Positions 1 through 7,496 of a stretch of DNA of 7,496 nucleotides are shown here, one piece after another (position 1 is the first letter of the stretch; every line of letters begins with the position of its first letter). The DNA comes from Nitrospinae bacterium RIFCSPLOWO2_12_FULL_45_22. Its GTDB lineage: Bacteria > 2-12-FULL-45-22. The notes under the pieces are model-generated. The model was given only the letters and a program-made list of their open reading frames with translations. It ran no database searches and was not told the DNA's origin. Where the stretch lies: contig MHDQ01000073.1 in assembly GCA_001803565.1 (NCBI GenBank), positions 461 through 7,956 on the forward strand. The letters run 5' to 3'. The position numbers were made by a program, and so were the translations under genes.

Positions 1-1298
1 AACTTTCCGTTGTTCTTCGTGAGCAGGCAGGGATGGTCAGTTATTCTCTTGAATTTTTTGCCTCTGCCATAAAGGGCTAATTGATGGAGACCAATATCTT
101 CTTCTATATCCCTTGCACAAACATTGCAATAGCCTTCTATAGCATAGGGACGCATAGGAAGAAGCTGATCCTCTGGCAGTTTTCTTATAGAATTTATTAT
201 TCGATCGGTGTGTCCACAGGCAGGGCATAGAAACCAACCATTCTTAGGGACATTGCCCTGCATGGGGTTATAGGTTTCCTCACAAACGGGGCAACAGACC
301 TGATCGGGAAGATTCCCCCGCCACTGCCATACCGCATAGCAATAAGGACATAGAAGGACCGTTAATGGAACCTTTTTTCGCTCCATTTTGGAGGATTTGG
401 ATATCGGTTTTACATTTTTGTTGCACCAGGGACACTTTACTAAGTTTTGAGTTTTGAGTTTTGAGTTTTGAGTTGAAAGGGGGGCATAGCTCCAGCGCGC
501 GGTAGTTCGGCCCATGCCGGCGGAATAGGTCGGGCTTGCTATACAGAGACTCGGTTCAGCAATGAGACTGGCAGGTTCTACTTCCCAATCAAATGTCTTT
601 CTGCACTCAGGGCATTCGACATCACGGTTATATCTTATGGAGGGAGACTTGGGCACAATGATATAGTCCGAAAAAAGGGGGACCTCCTTACGGCAGAGCG
701 GATTGGTGCAAATAGCCGATTTGACCCAGAAGGTATAGATAGTATCTGCCTCTTCTCTGCCGGCGCCACAGCAGGGGCACTCGGTTTTGTACTGTTCCAA
801 AAGAGTCTCTTTGACCGATTTGCCGTTCCAGGCAACCTTACGCCCTGCCAGACGCCCAAATGATGCCTTGAGTTCGTCAATATCGACCGGTTCGACTTCG
901 GTCTTCACGATAAACCAGGCAACAGGATTGAGGTCTATCCCGATAACCTTACATCCAAGCCGCAATGCCTCCACTACCGTGGTACCGCCCCCCATAAAGG
1001 GGTCAAGGATGACCTTTCCTTTGGTATCCGGGTCATTGGTATGATCTTTATAGAACTCCTCCATAATGACCTCAGCACCACTTTTGAGGGGCTTGCCATT
1101 TTCATCCAGGGGGAGGGGTTTCATACAGCCCAGAAGGATGGCCCGGAATACACAGGAGGCCCGGCGGGCAAACCATTTGTGCATTTGATAGATAGGTTTA
1201 AAGGCATTCCTCTCGGGGATGGCCAGCCGATTTATCTCCACAATGGGAAAGGAATCCTCAATGGCATATTTAGTATAATTTGGATGCGAATCACTCAC
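1..1298 (-). CDS. DUF1156/COG1743-type adenine-specific DNA methylase, N-terminal part (C-terminus beyond the window)
   Basis: Reading right to left, the frame is open from a GTG at 1298 to the window edge: 432 codons, no stop. An in-frame TAG at 1331-1329 limits the start. AAGGAG at 1313-1308 lies 9 nt before the GTG and supports it over a TTG at 1304. Residues 29-60 (PERNAFKPIY, MHKWFARRAS) match the DUF1156 entry segment. DPFMGGGT at 99-106 is the SAM-binding motif, followed by IGIDLNP at 119-125. Eight cysteine pairs follow (174/177, 197/202, 229/232, 289/292, 317/320, 336/339, 358/361, 391/394), enough for about four zinc ribbons. The catalytic DPPY motif is not seen and should lie past position 1. 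Predicted role: N6-adenine methylation of host DNA as the self-marking arm of a BREX-like defence system (inference). An in-frame heptamer repeat encodes residues 276-285, between two zinc ribbons. Confidence 0.88.
   Translation of the reverse strand, partial: MSDSHPNYTKYAIEDSFPIVEINRLAIPERNAFKPIYQMHKWFARRASCVFRAILLGCMKPLPLDENGKPLKSGAEVIMEEFYKDHTNDPDTKGKVILDPFMGGGTTVVEALRLGCKVIGIDLNPVAWFIVKTEVEPVDIDELKASFGRLAGRKVAWNGKSVKETLLEQYKTECPCCGAGREEADTIYTFWVKSAICTNPLCRKEVPLFSDYIIVPKSPSIRYNRDVECPECRKTFDWEVEPASLIAEPSLCIASPTYSAGMGRTTARWSYAPLSTQNSKLKTQNLVKCPWCNKNVKPISKSSKMERKKVPLTVLLCPYCYAVWQWRGNLPDQVCCPVCEETYNPMQGNVPKNGWFLCPACGHTDRIINSIRKLPEDQLLPMRPYAIEGYCNVCARDIEEDIGLHQLALYGRGKKFKRITDHPCLLTKNNGK
444..471. 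repeat. Four tandem copies of heptamer GTTTTGA (TCAAAAC on the coding strand) inside the methylase
   Basis: Four perfect 7-bp units at 444-450, 451-457, 458-464 and 465-471, followed by a degenerate GTTGAAA. On the coding strand they read TCAAAAC and stay open in the methylase frame, giving a polar Gln/Asn/Ser/Lys-rich linker (residues 276-285, TQNSKLKTQN) just before CPWC of the next zinc ribbon. The unit length is not a multiple of three, so each gain or loss of one copy would shift the frame. Confidence 0.85.
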
Positions 1299-1307
1299 CC
1301 TCAATTT

Positions 1308-1313
1308 CTCCTT
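1308..1313 (-). promoter_or_regulatory. Ribosome binding site of the methylase
   Basis: AAGGAG on the minus strand, 9 nt before the GTG at 1298. It decides for this non-ATG start, since no ATG exists in frame between the upstream TAG (1331-1329) and the conserved DUF1156 segment. It lies 9 nt after the downstream arm of the 10-bp inverted repeat, so folding of that repeat could affect its access. Confidence 0.7.
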
Positions 1314-1322
1314 GATAAATGT

Positions 1323-1401
1323 AGCAATCTAAATAGCAAATGGAGCAGTTTTAAACTTAAAAAGTAACATTCCTGTCTGCCGCCAGGCAGGTTAGATTGC
1401 T
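1323..1401. repeat. 10-bp perfect inverted repeat enclosing a hairpin, upstream of the methylase
   Basis: AGCAATCTAA at 1323-1332 is the exact reverse complement of TTAGATTGCT at 1392-1401. The 59 bp between them include the hairpin at 1372-1391, which abuts the right arm. The ends face each other like the terminal repeats of a tiny non-autonomous element or the base of a branched RNA stem. In the methylase transcript the second arm ends 9 nt before the ribosome binding site. Confidence 0.7.
1372..1391. repeat. REP-like palindrome, CCTGTCTG/CAGGCAGG hairpin
   Basis: CCTGTCTG (1372-1379) and CAGGCAGG (1384-1391) form an 8-bp stem with one non-Watson-Crick position around a CCGC loop. It is far more GC-rich than the flanking AT-rich DNA. 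Similar CCTGCCTG/CAGGCAGG palindromes are scattered in genomes of uncultured bacteria, as I recall. It lacks a run of T after either arm, so it is not a standard intrinsic terminator, although it could pause or protect the transcript. Confidence 0.65.
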
Positions 1402-1421
1402 TCATTTTTATTAATAGGTGG

Positions 1422-1443
1422 GTTGCGTACGTATTTATGCAAC
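1422..1443. promoter_or_regulatory. 22-bp imperfect palindrome, possible operator or small hairpin
   Basis: GTTGCGTA (1422-1429) and TATGCAAC (1436-1443) match at 7 of 8 positions as inverted arms around a 6-bp centre. The length, two half-sites about 14 bp apart centre to centre, suits a dimeric DNA-binding protein. The helix-turn-helix protein of this operon, or the winged helices of the AlbA_2 protein, are possible but untested partners. Confidence 0.4.
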
Positions 1444-1506
1444 ATTTTAAAACCGTTTTGAGACACTTTAAAATTCGTGAGTGTGCATATTAGAGTGTTT
1501 CATAAG

Positions 1507-3159
1507 CTAATTTATGAGCTTTGTATATTTCATGCCCTTACCGGTTCCCGTCTTTATTAATAAACCAAGATCAACCAGCCTTTGAGCGATTCTTAATGCA
1601 GTATACCTTGGAACATGGAGAGTGGCCCGGATATCTTCATTCTTAAGATACCCTTTTTTCACCAGAATCGGTTCCAATGCCCTATATTCCTCAGACAGGT
1701 CTTTCATCTGCTTCTCAGAGGGCATCTCTATTTTATAAACCCTGCCTCCCTTCCTCAATAATCTCGCAACCCTTTTTTTCATCATTTCTTTAATTTCTCT
1801 TGCCGCCGTGTAAATATCGACCTTGCATATTTTCTGCCAATTCCTGCTGGTGAATGAACCACCATGAGATCGAGCAAAGAGCAACATGCGTTTCTGATTA
1901 GGATTCAGCTTTAGGTAATTAAACTGCTCAAGCCATTCTATATCTTCGAGTGAATACATCGGTTGATTCTTTAAAGTAACAGAAAATAGTGAATCAGCTA
2001 CAATCTCAATCTTTGGAGGGTATAATCCATTCTTTTCCATCTCCTCAAACATCCGTGGGATTCCTTCCCCGGTCTCTCGCATGTAGCCCAAATCAGTCAG
2101 TATCCGGACAATAAGAGGATTTCTACTGGCATGAACCCGTTCCCTTTCAAGAATCTTTTCCAGGGTGACTGGTTCGGGTGGCAAGCCGGGGCTACGGATT
2201 TCTATCCGGTCATCAAACATCCATACCTCAATAGACAACCCCTGAATACTGTAATCTCTGTGGGCAACAGCATTTACAATGGCCTCCTGCCAGGCAAAAG
2301 AGGGATACTCGATTTTTTCAACAAAAAATAGGTCATGTAGATATTGCCTCTCTTTTATGTGGGCAGAAATTGCTTTATATGCCTCCTCAATCAGCCTTAC
2401 CAACGGAAGCTCCAACCTCACTCGTTTGACAATATTCAATGCTCTGCCTGTTTTTCTTTCCGTCCCTTCATATTTGATAAAATCAATACCGCATCTGGGA
2501 TGCCACCGAAGAGGGTCTTTCCCGAAAAGGAGAAGCGCGGCTAGATTAAATCTGGGATTCCCATTGTCATAATCTATCAAACGATACTGGCTAAGTATAT
2601 CCTCATGGCTTCCATTTATAGCTACCTTTTTAGCGAAATCTGATATAAGTTCTGCCGAGAGATCATTCCATAAAGCAGTTAGTTCAATACGACTATCAAA
2701 GATAGCCTTTCTTTTCCCCATTTTGAGCAATTCGATTTGATTTGCAGGAAAAGGTGTATTCGAATCGCCAATTCTGAGCAGATAGCGACCATCAGATAAC
2801 TGATACGCATCGGGCATCCAGTGAGTGCTAAAAATAAAAACCCATTTTCCAGGAAAAGCAGCTTTATCAATTTTAACGCCTAAGGGAGGTGCTATCAGAT
2901 TCTTAGGTGCATCCAGGATAATTCTGATTTTGTCATCAGGAAAATCGACGCCAGAGACATTCCCGTCATCGTCGACTCCTAATAAAAGTGTCCCTCCGTC
3001 AGCGTTGGCAAAGGCCGATAGCGTCTCTGCAACATCTTTGGCAACATCCTTAGCTTTTCTAAGTTTCCATTTGCCTTCTATATACCCATAACAGCTCTTT
3101 CGTTCCAGAAACTGTCCTTCGGGTTGGCGAAGCAGCCGTTCAATGTTGATTCTACTCAT
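1507..3159 (-). CDS. AlbA_2 (Schlafen-type) and GHKL-ATPase-like protein with C-terminal winged helices (COG2865-like)
   Basis: 550 residues from the ATG at 3159. A GTG at 3168 would add three residues and abut the previous stop, but AGGTGA at 3170-3165 is a ribosome binding site correctly placed for the ATG. Residues 15-135 form an AlbA_2 domain: FLERKS at 17-22, then ETLSAFANADGG and LLLGVDDDG at 45-66. Residues 288-375 look like the divergent HATPase_c_4 fold: EAIVNAVAHRDYS at 292-304, RIEIRSPGLPP at 318-328, RETGEGIPRM at 361-370. The remainder (about 415-550) has two helical segments of winged-helix type, the last with basic residues (RYTALRIAQRL at 518-528). The family is often annotated as transcriptional regulator or RecG-like C-terminal protein; its activity is mostly unknown. 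Being locked between PglZ and the methylase suggests either control of the system or an effector role. The domain call is firm; the function is not. Confidence 0.9.
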   Translation of the reverse strand: MSRINIERLLRQPEGQFLERKSCYGYIEGKWKLRKAKDVAKDVAETLSAFANADGGTLLLGVDDDGNVSGVDFPDDKIRIILDAPKNLIAPPLGVKIDKAAFPGKWVFIFSTHWMPDAYQLSDGRYLLRIGDSNTPFPANQIELLKMGKRKAIFDSRIELTALWNDLSAELISDFAKKVAINGSHEDILSQYRLIDYDNGNPRFNLAALLLFGKDPLRWHPRCGIDFIKYEGTERKTGRALNIVKRVRLELPLVRLIEEAYKAISAHIKERQYLHDLFFVEKIEYPSFAWQEAIVNAVAHRDYSIQGLSIEVWMFDDRIEIRSPGLPPEPVTLEKILERERVHASRNPLIVRILTDLGYMRETGEGIPRMFEEMEKNGLYPPKIEIVADSLFSVTLKNQPMYSLEDIEWLEQFNYLKLNPNQKRMLLFARSHGGSFTSRNWQKICKVDIYTAAREIKEMMKKRVARLLRKGGRVYKIEMPSEKQMKDLSEEYRALEPILVKKGYLKNEDIRATLHVPRYTALRIAQRLVDLGLLIKTGTGKGMKYTKLIN

Positions 3160-3164
3160 TGCTT

Positions 3165-3170
3165 TCACCT
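3165..3170 (-). promoter_or_regulatory. Ribosome binding site of the AlbA_2 gene, overlapping the PglZ stop codon
   Basis: AGGTGA on the minus strand, 5 nt before the ATG at 3159. Its first two bases belong to the TAG stop of the PglZ gene (3171-3169). It moves the preferred start from the GTG at 3168, which is inside this site, to the ATG at 3159, and implies translational coupling. Confidence 0.65.
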
Positions 3171-4146
3171 ATTCTAAAACAATCCAGGGGACCAGCATCT
3201 CCATTATGGAAAGGCCTCCATGTTTGTACAGCATACTCGCTGTTTTACCCTGGGGATGGGTCTGAATACGTCCCTTTAAAACCGCAACCTTCAGGTTACG
3301 ATATACTGCCAGGTCAGGATGATCCGGTGGATTAATATTCTCATCAGTTAGGTACCGGTAACGCTCACCTCCAAGATATGCAATTAATGGTCTTAACTCC
3401 AGATTGGATCTCGGAAACGATAGGCCCGCTCCAAGATACATGTATCCATGGTCACTGGTTAGCAAAATCTTGCGCCCGCGAGGGATCTGCTGGACGGTGT
3501 TAAGCCATGCCGTTTCAAGGAGTTTATGCATTTGTATAAAATGCTGCGGAAAACGGGCACCACTATCACTATAGGTATTATCAGGAAAGGCTGACCATAG
3601 GAGTAATTTTGGGGAATGTCGATCAAGAGGAAACTGTTGGCTCGGGTTGTTATAGTAATATACTGCCATGTCCTTTTCTTTAATTTGACCCCTTTTGGGG
3701 AGTTGAGATGGGGAAACCCTTCCTAATTTCAATTTGTGCGCTATAAAGTCAATGCTTTCTGTCGGTAAGGTAGAATAGGATGTGCCAATTTCTTGAACAA
3801 TAAAATTTGATTTTCTCGCAAGATCCAAAAGCGGAGGAATCTCCCTGAGGGATAATCCATCAAAGATAACAAGGGCGGTTGGTTCATCCATTTCGAGGAA
3901 ATGCAAAATATTTCGCCCATGGAGGGGCTCATCAAGGAATTCATCATAAAGCCTATGTGCTGCATGGGCTATAATCTCCTCGAGGGTGTTGATCTCTAAT
4001 TCACCATCATTCAAGTACTGCAATGCAGAAAGGTTTTGATAACGTTCAGCCGACCAGACTTCTCCTAACAGCCACTTTTCCAGCCATGCAACTCTGGGTC
4101 CCGGTCTAATCAGACTTTCAAAATTATCTAAGACCAAATTACTCAT
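3169..4146 (-). CDS. pglZ: Short PglZ-domain protein (alkaline-phosphatase superfamily)
   Basis: 325 residues from an ATG at 4146 preceded by AAGGA (4159-4155, 8 nt away), overlapping the end of the ATPase gene by 8 bp. The alkaline-phosphatase-type metal-site motifs of PglZ are all visible: ALVIFDGLSLRE at 91-102, with D96 as a first metal ligand; YSTLPTES at 124-131, where the Ser/Thr nucleophile is expected; TSDHGY at 230-235, with D232 and H233; and YKHGGLSIMEMLVP at 307-320, with H309. Nothing follows this last motif but five residues. PglZ is one of the two hallmark proteins of BREX and Pgl phage defence, where it is essential, but its substrate is unsettled. BREX PglZ proteins are usually about twice this length or more, so this one is essentially the bare catalytic domain with a roughly 85-residue helical front. 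It probably works together with the ATPase encoded just upstream. Confidence 0.88.
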   Translation of the reverse strand: MSNLVLDNFESLIRPGPRVAWLEKWLLGEVWSAERYQNLSALQYLNDGELEINTLEEIIAHAAHRLYDEFLDEPLHGRNILHFLEMDEPTALVIFDGLSLREIPPLLDLARKSNFIVQEIGTSYSTLPTESIDFIAHKLKLGRVSPSQLPKRGQIKEKDMAVYYYNNPSQQFPLDRHSPKLLLWSAFPDNTYSDSGARFPQHFIQMHKLLETAWLNTVQQIPRGRKILLTSDHGYMYLGAGLSFPRSNLELRPLIAYLGGERYRYLTDENINPPDHPDLAVYRNLKVAVLKGRIQTHPQGKTASMLYKHGGLSIMEMLVPWIVLE

Positions 4147-6757
4147 CTTTCTCTTCCTTATCCTCGGATGATAGAATATCTAATCGGGCGGAATAACTTG
4201 CGCCGGAAAGAGATGGGAGCGACTCGATGATCTTCTCAATTTCTCCTTTAGTGAAAGGGCCTTCCTTAGTAATTGTAATCTCTGCTGTGAGGGCCCCTTG
4301 TCCGCTAAGACTTCCCCTAAGAGAGGTAGGAAGAGCGCTGAGATCCCCCGTGCTTTTATCTAAAAATATGGTTGTGCGGATGCGGATTATCGTGGCATCA
4401 GGAAATTCCTGGAGTCGAACTGCAACGGCTTGCCGGAGTTCTCCGCTGCTTTCTTGAGGTGGAAGGCTAAGCTCCTCCTTTTTCTCCTCTATAATAGGTG
4501 AAGGCTTAACCGGCGGAGTATCTTCTTGTTCCGTACCGGGATGGATAATCTCTTTTCTCTGGTCGGGCAATGTAATCAATGGAGGGCGGTCCGGATGTTT
4601 TTCCAAGGGTTCTCCAATAGTTGCCTCTGATAGTTCTGTTTCTGTTAAATTTGGATTCTCGTGGGAGAAATTTCCCCGTGGATGCCGGATGCTAATCTGC
4701 CCTTTTCGGCATAATTCTCGAAGGGCCTGACTGACCGATCTCACCGTGGTAGGGACAGGGAATCCCAGGGTAGAACTATACTGCCTATCTATCTCTTTTA
4801 CGGTGAGGTTGAGAATCTCCTCTAGACGAGATGAAAGGTGCTCCTCAAATAATTGGGTAGGGAATAGTTGCTGAGAAAGGAAATTGAGAACATCTTCTTT
4901 GGTGGTTCCAGGAATAGCTTCTTCCTCGATGCGATCCTTATTTGGTGTGTCTCCATATTGTTCCCATCGGATAAAAACAAGTCCTGCTCGTTTGATAGTG
5001 TCAATACAGTTATTTCTATCTTCCCGGGCAATTCTTTCATATTCAGCTCTACGCGCCGCATTTCTAGCCGTCCCGGCAAGCTCTTGAGCGGCAAGCTGTC
5101 TCTGGGCCCATTTGAGAAGGTCCCTATGAATATCAAGGTTAAATCTTGGCTCCTTTGGCTCCAGGAGAACAACCTGATTCCGCATTGGGATACCATAAAA
5201 TAGCTTATGCCGGTCTTCCGGACTCAACTTCCGTGGGGAAAGAATATAGCGGAGCCGATTCTTGTCAAGTCCATCCAATAGATTCTTGGTCTCCTCTTCG
5301 CCCTGGTAGATAATACAGTTCGGCTCCTTAAAAATATCGTCTTGCCAAAGGGTACGGAGGAAAGTGCGGGCCTTGCTCCCATCTGGGTCAATGGTTAAAG
5401 AACGGAATTCCACCTTGGCATCGGGATTTTCTTCCAGATCGAAGAAATATCTCCCTTCTTCTACCCAAAAATGTGAGGCATATTTTTGAAAGCTAAGGAG
5501 GGTCTTCTCGAAGTCATTTATATCAACCCTGGGAGTGAGGACGTGTCTTATTAGCTCTTCTCGGGTAGCACCACGGCCGCGGCCGGAGCTGGTGAGGGTA
5601 TATAGCATCACCGTTGCACTGATATCGGATGCTAATGGTTGATCTTTTAATTCATCAAGGTTCCCCCGGGCCCTTGAAATTAAGTCTCCACTTGGATCAA
5701 GATCGGAAAGTCTGGTAGCTACCTCCCTGTCATGTAGATTAGCATGGGCCGCGGTTATGAAATCTGCTTTGTCATGGGTCAACCTGACCATATTTGCCAA
5801 AAATCCTAATGCCCCGCGAACGCTTTGAAACCCACCTCGGGCAGGTACTCTTTCCAAAATCAGCTCAAGCACCTCGGGCAAAAAAGGATATGTTAGAAGC
5901 ATCTTTGACCGGTACTCTTCGGATGAAGAGATTTGTTGCCGGCGCCAGGTATTCAGGTAGCTATCAATAATGGAAGCGCATGCATTATGGTTGAAATCTA
6001 TGTAATTTTCAAAGAGTCTATGAAGGACCACCTTTGCCCTATCGGCAGAATGAGCAAATTGGATACGGCAACTAGGAACCCTTTTGAGCGTACTTCCTGG
6101 CTCTTCCTGGTCACTATAGATGCTCGCAAACACAGTGACCTTATCGGAGCGGTTTGCCCATTCCGAGAGCATCTGAAGGAATGCTACGTTCTGTGCTTTT
6201 ATAGATGGCTCGCTTATTACCCGGATACCTTGTTCCAGCTCATCCAATATAAGAATCAATCTTTTATCTCCAAAAACTTTCTCCACTTCTGGCAAGCTTG
6301 GCTGGATGATGCTTTGCTTGGAGCGCCGTTTTGACAATTTCTCAAATAGGAAATCCCAGATTGAATATAGGGGCAAGTCTGTGAATTTATTTACGACTAC
6401 TACGGTATCATGAGGAAGTTCACAGTTCAGCTTATGAATATCAAGCCAGTCCTTGGCTACTCCATAATTCTTAAATAGATGATAAATCATGAGGAGTAAG
6501 TGAGATTTTCCACTCCCTTTGAGCCCCTCAAAAAGAAACAATCCGGGAGTGTCTTTATGCCCTGAAAACCTATCAGATAGTTTCTGAATAACCCGGCGAA
6601 TATCTGCGGTAGGATAAGTTAGGGAGAAAAACCTTCGAGGGTCCCTCTCAAGTTTTTGACCCGTGGGTTCTTCAAGATTTGCAAGGTCTATGATTCCATC
6701 GATTCCCTCATCAGAAAGGGCCTCTGACCTTGGTCGAAGTATTTTAGAGAAGGCCAT
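4139..6757 (-). CDS. DUF499/BrxC/PglY-like P-loop ATPase
   Basis: 872 residues from an ATG at 6757. A GTG at 6781 in the same frame gives eight more residues but would place the strong GGGAGG site (6772-6767) inside the gene. The front (DPRRFFSLTYPT, 39-50) resembles the entry of DUF499 ATPases. Walker A is GLKGSGKS at 78-85 and Walker B LILILDELE at 167-175 (D172, E173). KVTVFASIYS at 206-215 is a sensor-1-like strand, and RGGFQSVRGALGFL at 307-320 resembles the post-ATPase helix of that family. Residues 395-443 look like a winged helix ending in EEGRYFFDLEENP. A helical charged segment (545-590), a second small winged-helix-like unit (665-692), a proline- and glutamate-rich linker (about 713-770) and an alpha/beta domain with acidic tail (775-872) follow. 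In BREX, BrxC/PglY is the large essential ATPase. It overlaps the PglZ gene, as expected for partners. It is shorter than typical BrxC/PglY (often above 1,100 residues), so a DUF499-class assignment is the safer one. Confidence 0.85.
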   Translation of the reverse strand: MAFSKILRPRSEALSDEGIDGIIDLANLEEPTGQKLERDPRRFFSLTYPTADIRRVIQKLSDRFSGHKDTPGLFLFEGLKGSGKSHLLLMIYHLFKNYGVAKDWLDIHKLNCELPHDTVVVVNKFTDLPLYSIWDFLFEKLSKRRSKQSIIQPSLPEVEKVFGDKRLILILDELEQGIRVISEPSIKAQNVAFLQMLSEWANRSDKVTVFASIYSDQEEPGSTLKRVPSCRIQFAHSADRAKVVLHRLFENYIDFNHNACASIIDSYLNTWRRQQISSSEEYRSKMLLTYPFLPEVLELILERVPARGGFQSVRGALGFLANMVRLTHDKADFITAAHANLHDREVATRLSDLDPSGDLISRARGNLDELKDQPLASDISATVMLYTLTSSGRGRGATREELIRHVLTPRVDINDFEKTLLSFQKYASHFWVEEGRYFFDLEENPDAKVEFRSLTIDPDGSKARTFLRTLWQDDIFKEPNCIIYQGEEETKNLLDGLDKNRLRYILSPRKLSPEDRHKLFYGIPMRNQVVLLEPKEPRFNLDIHRDLLKWAQRQLAAQELAGTARNAARRAEYERIAREDRNNCIDTIKRAGLVFIRWEQYGDTPNKDRIEEEAIPGTTKEDVLNFLSQQLFPTQLFEEHLSSRLEEILNLTVKEIDRQYSSTLGFPVPTTVRSVSQALRELCRKGQISIRHPRGNFSHENPNLTETELSEATIGEPLEKHPDRPPLITLPDQRKEIIHPGTEQEDTPPVKPSPIIEEKKEELSLPPQESSGELRQAVAVRLQEFPDATIIRIRTTIFLDKSTGDLSALPTSLRGSLSGQGALTAEITITKEGPFTKGEIEKIIESLPSLSGASYSARLDILSSEDKEEKDE

Positions 6758-6766
6758 AATAAAAAT

Positions 6767-6772
6767 CCTCCC
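6767..6772 (-). promoter_or_regulatory. Ribosome binding site of the ATPase gene
   Basis: GGGAGG on the minus strand, 9 nt before the ATG at 6757. This strong site, in the 20-nt gap after the helix-turn-helix gene, decides for the ATG at 6757 over the in-frame GTG at 6781, which overlaps the preceding gene and has only GAATAGAAA in front of it. Confidence 0.75.
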
Positions 6773-6777
6773 AATAG

Positions 6778-6999
6778 TCACTTTCTATTCTGTATCTTTT
6801 GCCGCTTTTTTGTCTTAATCTTGTGATTCATTTTCTTGTTATCTTCAATCCAGTTATTAATATCCTCACGCTTAAACCTCCAGGCCCCCCCCACTTTAAA
6901 GCCTGGCAACTGTCCCCGCTCCAGAAGATTGTAAATAGTCCTTTCTGTTACATTGAGATACTTAGCTAGTTCTTTAATCGTCAGAGTCGATTCTGTCAT
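6778..6999 (-). CDS. Excisionase/MerR-type helix-turn-helix DNA-binding protein (HTH_17-like)
   Basis: 73 residues. The start ATG at 6999 has a purine-rich GGGAAGGG (7011-7004) just ahead. Residues 5-53 match the small excisionase-family domain: LTIKELAKYLNVTERTIYNL at 6-25 is the helix-turn-helix, GQLPGFKVGGAWRFKREDI at 29-47 the beta-wing, and INNWIEDN the closing helix. The last 20 residues form a strongly basic tail (KIKTKKRQKIQNRK) that probably adds nonspecific DNA contact. This domain occurs in phage and transposon excisionases but also in many small regulators. As first gene of the operon, with no integrase in view, I favour an autoregulator of the cassette, and consider a remnant of a mobile element possible. 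Confidence 0.88.
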   Translation of the reverse strand: MTESTLTIKELAKYLNVTERTIYNLLERGQLPGFKVGGAWRFKREDINNWIEDNKKMNHKIKTKKRQKIQNRK

Positions 7000-7132: not shown

Positions 7133-7496
7133 TTAGATATGAAATTCTATGATATCTCCCTCTTGAAGGATATAATCTCTATGGACCAGTTGACCGGCAT
7201 ATTTATCTTTACCCCAGATCCTGGCAAATTTTAATCTTTCAGCAAAATCTTTATGGATAGATTGGCCCACATCAACTACATTGCTCCCTTTCTTCATAGC
7301 CAACGGTTCATTATAGTTTACCTCTTTACCCGGGGCCCTGGTATATACCCGGACAATATCCAGTGCGTTATATATTTGATTTTTTAGCTCCTCCAGGTTA
7401 ATGCCTTTCTCAGCAGAGACAGGAACGATAGAATATCTTTCCCCATATAATTCCTGCAGGACGGTTAAGTTTTCCTGGCTCTCTGGTAGATCAGCC
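7133..7496 (-). CDS. OBG/DRG-like GTPase with TGS domain, C-terminal part (N-terminus beyond the window)
   Basis: The last 120 residues are present, ending at TAA 7135-7133. The fragment opens with ADLPE, which would be the end of an NKxD (G4) motif. VPVSAEKG at residues 24-31 is the G5 SA motif, and after a short helix residues 48-120 form a TGS domain: VRVYTRAPGK, a GSNVVDVGQSIHKDF segment and FARIWGKDKYAGQLVHRDYIL, closing with GDIIEFHI. TGS domains bind ribosomes or RNA in OBG, DRG and related GTPases. The gene is upstream of and separate from the defence operon by 133 nt, and it marks the probable edge of conserved chromosome next to the accessory cassette. The precise subfamily cannot be told without the G domain. 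Confidence 0.85.
   Translation of the reverse strand, partial: ADLPESQENLTVLQELYGERYSIVPVSAEKGINLEELKNQIYNALDIVRVYTRAPGKEVNYNEPLAMKKGSNVVDVGQSIHKDFAERLKFARIWGKDKYAGQLVHRDYILQEGDIIEFHI

Follow-up and report, generated by a model that had tools for sequence, protein, structure and literature searches.

Type-3 BR (BREX-Related) systems, reported from 569 taxa, combine a DUF499 ATPase, a zinc-finger N6-methylase, a nuclease-free helicase and a stand-alone PglZ, which takes the place of the nuclease of Type-1 and Type-2 BR systems (PMC12839542). A small iSTAND protein is found in 82% of Type-3 BR systems, and BR systems as a whole are linked to, and possibly derived from, Type-3 BREX (PMC12839542). 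Proteins that fuse Schlafen, minimal histidine kinase and wHTH domains accompany BREX and BR loci in at least 1,017 taxa and are described as auxiliary effectors there (PMC12839542). In Type-3 BR, auxiliary nucleases are absent or kept in limited instances only (PMC12839542), which makes the Schlafen gene reported here a less usual feature. No study was found that assays a Type-3 BR locus for defence.

The window analysed here (the whole stretch of DNA, 7,496 nt) very probably represents the front part of a Type-3 BR operon that has lost its last genes at a contig end and gained a Schlafen-like auxiliary gene. A DUF499-type ATPase, a stand-alone PglZ and a zinc-finger N6-methylase are all present. 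The nuclease-free SNF2 helicase of the class was seen in a complete relative (L013) and a helicase is likewise placed in most bacterial and viral loci; here it would fall beyond the contig end. An earlier note on this DNA had read it as a BREX-like defence operon, and the family matches and the match to the Type-3 BR class bear this out. Its suggestion that the locus may stand midway from BREX to the DUF499/DUF1156 anti-phage loci comes very close to the published description of Type-3 BR (PMC12839542). The earlier note had thought of a possible variant subtype; the locus is new, but this kind of system was already described in January 2026 (PMC12839542).

Gene layout and conservation of the core

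The window spans positions 461-7956 of contig C73 (7,956 bp in all) in G000, a draft genome that is 85% complete. Six-frame ORFs confirmed five minus-strand genes near the positions given in the earlier note, and its view that four of them are tightly coupled agrees with their overlaps and abutting ends (Table 1). The HTH and ATPase genes overlap by 4 nt and the ATPase and pglZ genes by 8 nt, the pglZ and AlbA_2 genes abut, and about 200 nt lie between the AlbA_2 and methylase genes. Promoter and terminator scans of the window gave results near chance level overall.

Table 1. Features of the window, with positions counted from its first nucleotide.
Feature	Position	Strand	Evidence or remark
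HTH protein, 73 aa	6778..6999	-	HTH_17 4.8e-19; MerR/excisionase-type
DUF499/HmaC-type AAA+ ATPase, 880 aa as read	4139..6781	-	NCBIfam DUF499_antiphage 2.7e-16; PADLOC HmaC 2.7e-13
Stand-alone mini-PglZ, 325 aa	3169..4146	-	Profile matches to BREX PglZ and PorX; AlphaFold model
Candidate metal and nucleophile residues of PglZ: D96, S131, D189, D232, H233, H309			Sequence comparison
Schlafen AlbA_2 + degenerate GHKL (HATPase_c_4) + C-terminal wHTH-like protein, 553 aa	1507..3168	-	SLFN_AlbA_2 3.3e-19; HATPase_c_4 1.9e-23; weak C-terminal wHTH matches
DUF1156-class N6-DNA methyltransferase, N-terminal part	1..1304, off left edge	-	DUF1156 2.4e-6; N6_N4_Mtase 1.9e-8
Sigma-70-like site upstream of HTH gene	7085-7058	-	10/12 matches; scan overall near chance
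C-terminal end of TGS-domain GTPase	7133-7495	-	Upstream of operon, apparently unrelated

A run of 35 N (contig positions 426-460) immediately precedes the window start, and the methylase ORF resumes past this gap and reaches the contig end. As the genes of the left flank are unassembled, their absence there is no evidence. Of the five core genes, this assembly contains only three. The lack of BrxB, BrxF and BrxL, listed in the earlier note as part of the unusual membership, must be dropped as a feature of the locus because the contig ends, and in relatives a small protein and a helicase follow the methylase. By comparison with these relatives, genes for a small protein resembling BrxB/BrxF and for a helicase resembling BrxHII would lie past the contig end here. 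Searches of G000 with the L013 proteins returned no match for the small protein and, for the helicase, only weak matches (at most 39% identity) with no convincing copy.

A scan of species genomes for the mini-PglZ detected the complete relative L013, on a Latescibacterota contig (72% identity), together with two Dehalococcoidia loci. L013 encodes, on one strand, the HTH protein, ATPase, PglZ, AlbA_2 protein, a methylase of 1,023 aa with the DPPY motif, a protein of 143 aa and an SNF2 helicase of 947 aa. Every core gene of the window is 72-83% identical to its L013 counterpart (ATPase, 76%; methylase, 81-83%). The small gene 3' of the methylase in relatives encodes 128-173 aa without a Walker A motif; its fold model is poor, and the best matches are weak and RecA/Rad51-like (Z 4.8), with no BrxB listed, which speaks neither for nor against a kinship.

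Profiles of the core proteins recovered the order ATPase, PglZ, methylase, small protein wherever the contig allows, be it bacterial, viral or a haloarchaeal plasmid. Where bacterial and viral contigs extend past the small protein, the helicase is in most cases the next gene. PglZ directly follows the ATPase, with ends usually overlapping or abutting, in 28 distinct loci that carry both genes. The idea that the four-gene core is conserved across distant genomes therefore holds in part: ATPase, PglZ and methylase co-occur in distant taxa, but the AlbA_2 gene is not core. The system is rare: matches of any kind were obtained in 24 of the 386 sampled bacterial genomes, and most of these matches fall on the C-terminal portion of longer PglZ proteins that do not belong to the group.

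The haloarchaeal plasmid loci have no adjacent co-oriented helicase; in L069, L096 and L097 an annotated DNA adenine methylase gene follows the small protein in its stead. Type-3 BR operons, most of them complete for the five core genes, are also found on nine contigs catalogued as viral in the IMG/VR collection (L100-L108). This suggests that mobile or (pro)viral elements may carry the system. At L066 (G028:C88), the Type-3 BR ATPase and PglZ genes are interrupted by stops and frameshifts, and this is likely a decayed or badly assembled copy.

The HTH protein is a probable operon regulator, and similar genes lie directly 5' of the ATPase gene in L013, L088, L089, L105, L106 and L107. It scores 64 bits with the NCBIfam 'excise' model and 79.6 bits with NCBIfam MAD1. 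Identification as MAD1 of the MADS system was rejected, as this score is just below the cut-off of 80 bits and the other MADS genes are absent. Within the mad1-mad8 set, only the generic HTH comes near its model (MAD1), and the weak match of the methylase to mad2 is confined to motif I.

The ATPase contains Walker A (GLKGSGKSH) and Walker B (LILILDELE) motifs, and comparison with L013 points to the ATG at 6757 as its likely start. Pfam DUF499 did not match the window ATPase; it did match the related ATPase of L015 (6.1e-9). A PDB sequence search with the ATPase returned no informative relative, and the PADLOC BrxC model reached an E value of 0.06 only. In an ATPase tree, the PglZ-linked ATPases of the window, L013 and L100 grouped with 100/100 support; the tree has long branches and was built without a BrxC outgroup, so that this group is supported and deep relations are not.

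In the methylase fragment motif I reads DPFMGGG, and there are several CxxC pairs of the zinc-knuckle type. Motif IV (DPPY) falls outside the window and reads ITDPPY in the full-length L013 homologue, which matches the HmaB, DUF1156_MTase and PglXI models. In the earlier note, a methylase of the DUF1156 class was taken to set the locus apart from BREX. This does not stand, since the PADLOC PglXI model of Type-3 BREX is homologous and BR is itself tied to Type-3 BREX (PMC12839542). Further DUF1156-type methylase fragments are present on G000 contigs C91 (L057), C113 (L058), C192 (L059) and C6 (L060). An SNF2 helicase frame of 1,167 aa lies on the same strand as the fragment on C91, a possible Type-1 BR/Hma locus.

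Proposed function and cargo at the pglZ-methylase junction

By analogy with published work on relatives, the most likely function of the operon is modification-based defence with PglZ as a metal-dependent nuclease. The DUF1156 methylase would mark host DNA at N6-adenine, and the ATPase, helicase and small protein would survey for unmarked or invading DNA. Upon recognition PglZ, a putative metal-dependent phosphodiesterase of the PorX/NPP fold, would nick or otherwise degrade the invader. The AlbA_2/GHKL/wHTH protein may be a second-line effector, probably an RNase, set off when the first line fails, although its role in the mechanism is a guess. Gene content, conserved order, fold and most of the catalytic residues are what the analysis itself shows, whereas nuclease activity, host marking and defence are extrapolated from the work on relatives.

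It is conceivable, if only as a tentative reading, that the AlbA_2/GHKL/wHTH gene encodes the operon's transcriptional regulator and not an RNase effector. Proteins of the COG2865 type are usually annotated as transcriptional regulators, and the weak wHTH matches at the C terminus and a best PDB match to an uncharacterised relative are consistent with such a role. However, a separate HTH gene already stands first in the operon, and the protein keeps the two acidic residues of the AlbA_2 motif (EGQFLERK). Moreover, the gene occurs in some loci only, and defence or toxin modules fill the same slot elsewhere. A second-line effector is the preferred interpretation.

The AlbA_2 gene was counted as a core member in the earlier note, but it is missing from most relatives and, on sequence comparison, is auxiliary cargo outside the core. 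The protein is 72% identical to that of L013, and a 24%-identical Schlafen protein occupies the same pglZ-methylase slot in L063. In the ATPase tree L063 is distant from the window and L013, with cargo-free loci in between, and L100 is the sister of the window and L013. Given this position, two Schlafen gains are likelier than one, and the gene has probably been gained at least twice. Downstream of the complete operon, L013 16606-17631 encodes another protein related to it, 341 aa long and lacking the AlbA_2 N terminus of the window protein.

Junctions were surveyed in a convenience sample of 29 distinct loci, with the near-copies L092 and L108 left out. The pglZ-methylase junction measures at most 125 nt in 21 of these loci and 432-2,933 nt in the other 8. 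Its cargo consists of Schlafen genes (window, L013 and the 24%-identical one of L063), an HD gene and another gene (L062), SIR2-HerA (Klebsiella plasmids), a ParE-like pair (L015 and L093) or HicBA (L014). The remaining junctions are short, except for that between methylase and small protein in L106 (lipase) and that between small protein and helicase in L064 (MBL-fold and other genes). With related loci counted once, six of eight insertions fall at pglZ-methylase (P ~0.01 against even placement, in a small and post hoc comparison). The pglZ-methylase junction appears to be the preferred cargo site of Type-3 BR operons, as a generalisation from the 29-locus convenience sample.

A word search of the main text of PMC12839542 found no description of this cargo slot. 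One could tentatively go further and regard the junction as a dedicated exchange slot, repeatedly loaded with unrelated second-line effectors that are coupled to PglZ failure or activation, though we would not count this as the expected outcome. If it were true, a comparison of cargo-free and cargo-bearing operons would test the hand-over from PglZ to a second effector.

Several of these loci deserve separate mention. L072 7548-20150 (NZ_CP023186.1) is a complete Type-3 BR operon with SIR2-HerA between pglZ and methylase, and the Klebsiella plasmid that bears it also has blaKPC-2. This K518 locus is the one that was read fully; an equally similar pglZ was found in more than 30 further records, for the most part conjugative plasmids of enterobacteria. 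At L062 994-2216 the HD cargo gene is split into two ORFs (HD and HD_assoc_2) and may be frameshifted or badly assembled.

The mini-PglZ protein

Of the profile searches proposed in the earlier note, those for AlbA_2 and DUF1156 succeeded and those for Pfam DUF499 and Pfam PglZ failed. On its own, the window PglZ fell below every threshold (Pfam E value, 0.26), and a Pfam PglZ search of the whole of G000 returned no match anywhere, this locus included. The Pfam profile missed the short PglZs because it is too narrow, and relatives were therefore needed for the assignment. A profile built from 13 PglZ sequences matched the BREX PglZ 9nv3 at 3.1e-10 and PorX at 2.6e-7. The AlphaFold model (pLDDT 71, pTM 0.76) matched PorX over its whole length with Z 17.2 and the BREX PglZ 9zn5 with Z 14.2. 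With the relatives and the predicted fold added, the assignment to PglZ is solid.

Most of the presumed catalytic residues are in place. D96, D189, D232 and H233 are kept in every compared locus, and H309 in every compared locus whose sequence extends that far. The LPTES motif of the window PglZ aligns with the PorX-like LPSAT. At the presumed nucleophile the window PglZ has Ser131, where nearly all other compared loci have Thr. Four residues past D189 it has Ser193, where many relatives have His; L013, L100 and the archaeal loci likewise lack this His. No complete second metal site stands out in the window protein. Because of Ser131 for Thr and Ser193 for His, activity of this PglZ would not be assured.

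We lean towards PglZ as the DNA-cleaving effector. Type I PglZ was shown to nick and linearise DNA, and its catalytic mutant lowered defence by about 3 logs; by a section heading of the paper that describes it, this activity does not contribute to methylation. PglZ also stands in for the nuclease of Type-1 and Type-2 BR (PMC12839542). The cleavage of DNA, the mutant phenotype and the replaced nuclease argue against PglZ being a phosphodiesterase that acts on nucleotides or cyclic oligonucleotides, either removing a signal that activates AlbA_2 or depleting nucleotides, while another component restricts. In most loci of the set, moreover, there is no adjacent AlbA_2 gene whose product PglZ could regulate. 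On the other hand, the closest fold, PorX, is an oligonucleotide phosphodiesterase, the substrates of Type I PglZ include cyclic oligonucleotides besides DNA, and a complete second metal site is not apparent here. Overall, a phosphodiesterase of this kind appears rather unlikely, and cleavage of DNA by PglZ is the more likely reading.

Comparison with described systems

A divergent canonical BREX operon of Type 3, in place of BR, is very improbable and largely refuted. The PADLOC PglXI and BrxHI/HII models do match the L013 methylase and helicase, and BR is possibly derived from Type-3 BREX (PMC12839542). However, the HmaB, HmaA and DUF499 models outscore the BREX models, and the PglZ is a 325-aa domain alone, compared with about 880 aa in the matched BREX PDB chains. 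No BrxA-like gene, BrxC or long PglZ was recognised in the complete L013 operon, and BrxC, BrxA and a long PglZ are likewise not seen in the window. A Type-1 BR (Hma) system with PglZ as a chance neighbour, although the best PADLOC matches include HmaC and HmaB, is extremely improbable given the position of PglZ directly after the ATPase in the 28 loci and an L013 helicase that has SNF2/helicase domains only (matching the HmaA and BrxHI/HII models), without the nuclease domain that usually occurs in Type-1 BR. The three-gene arrangement of that system, with a helicase-nuclease and no PglZ, is found neither in the window nor in L013.

With this locus, a class first described in 2026 gains a member that bears a Schlafen gene and comes from a lineage sampled little so far, and the position of cargo within the operon is shown; taken alone, the locus alters the picture little. 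With Type-3 BR (Rakesh & Krishnan 2026, PMC12839542) it shares the ATPase, PglZ and methylase; the helicase and small protein are seen in its relatives. It differs in that the copy is truncated, a Schlafen gene lies inside the operon, and the presumed nucleophile of PglZ is Ser instead of Thr. Hma and Type-1 and Type-2 BR systems (PMC8565338, PMC12839542) have homologous ATPase, methylase and helicase, but they lack PglZ and carry a PD-(D/E)XK or HKD nuclease that is usually fused to the helicase. Type-3 BREX shares a homologous methylase (PglXI/BrxXI) and helicase (BrxHII), the PglZ domain and an inactive P-loop small protein, whereas it has BrxC (DUF6079) in place of the DUF499 ATPase, a long PglZ and BrxA. 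The PorX response regulator has the same PglZ domain fold and motifs; unlike the protein described here, it is a signalling protein with a receiver domain and lies outside defence operons.
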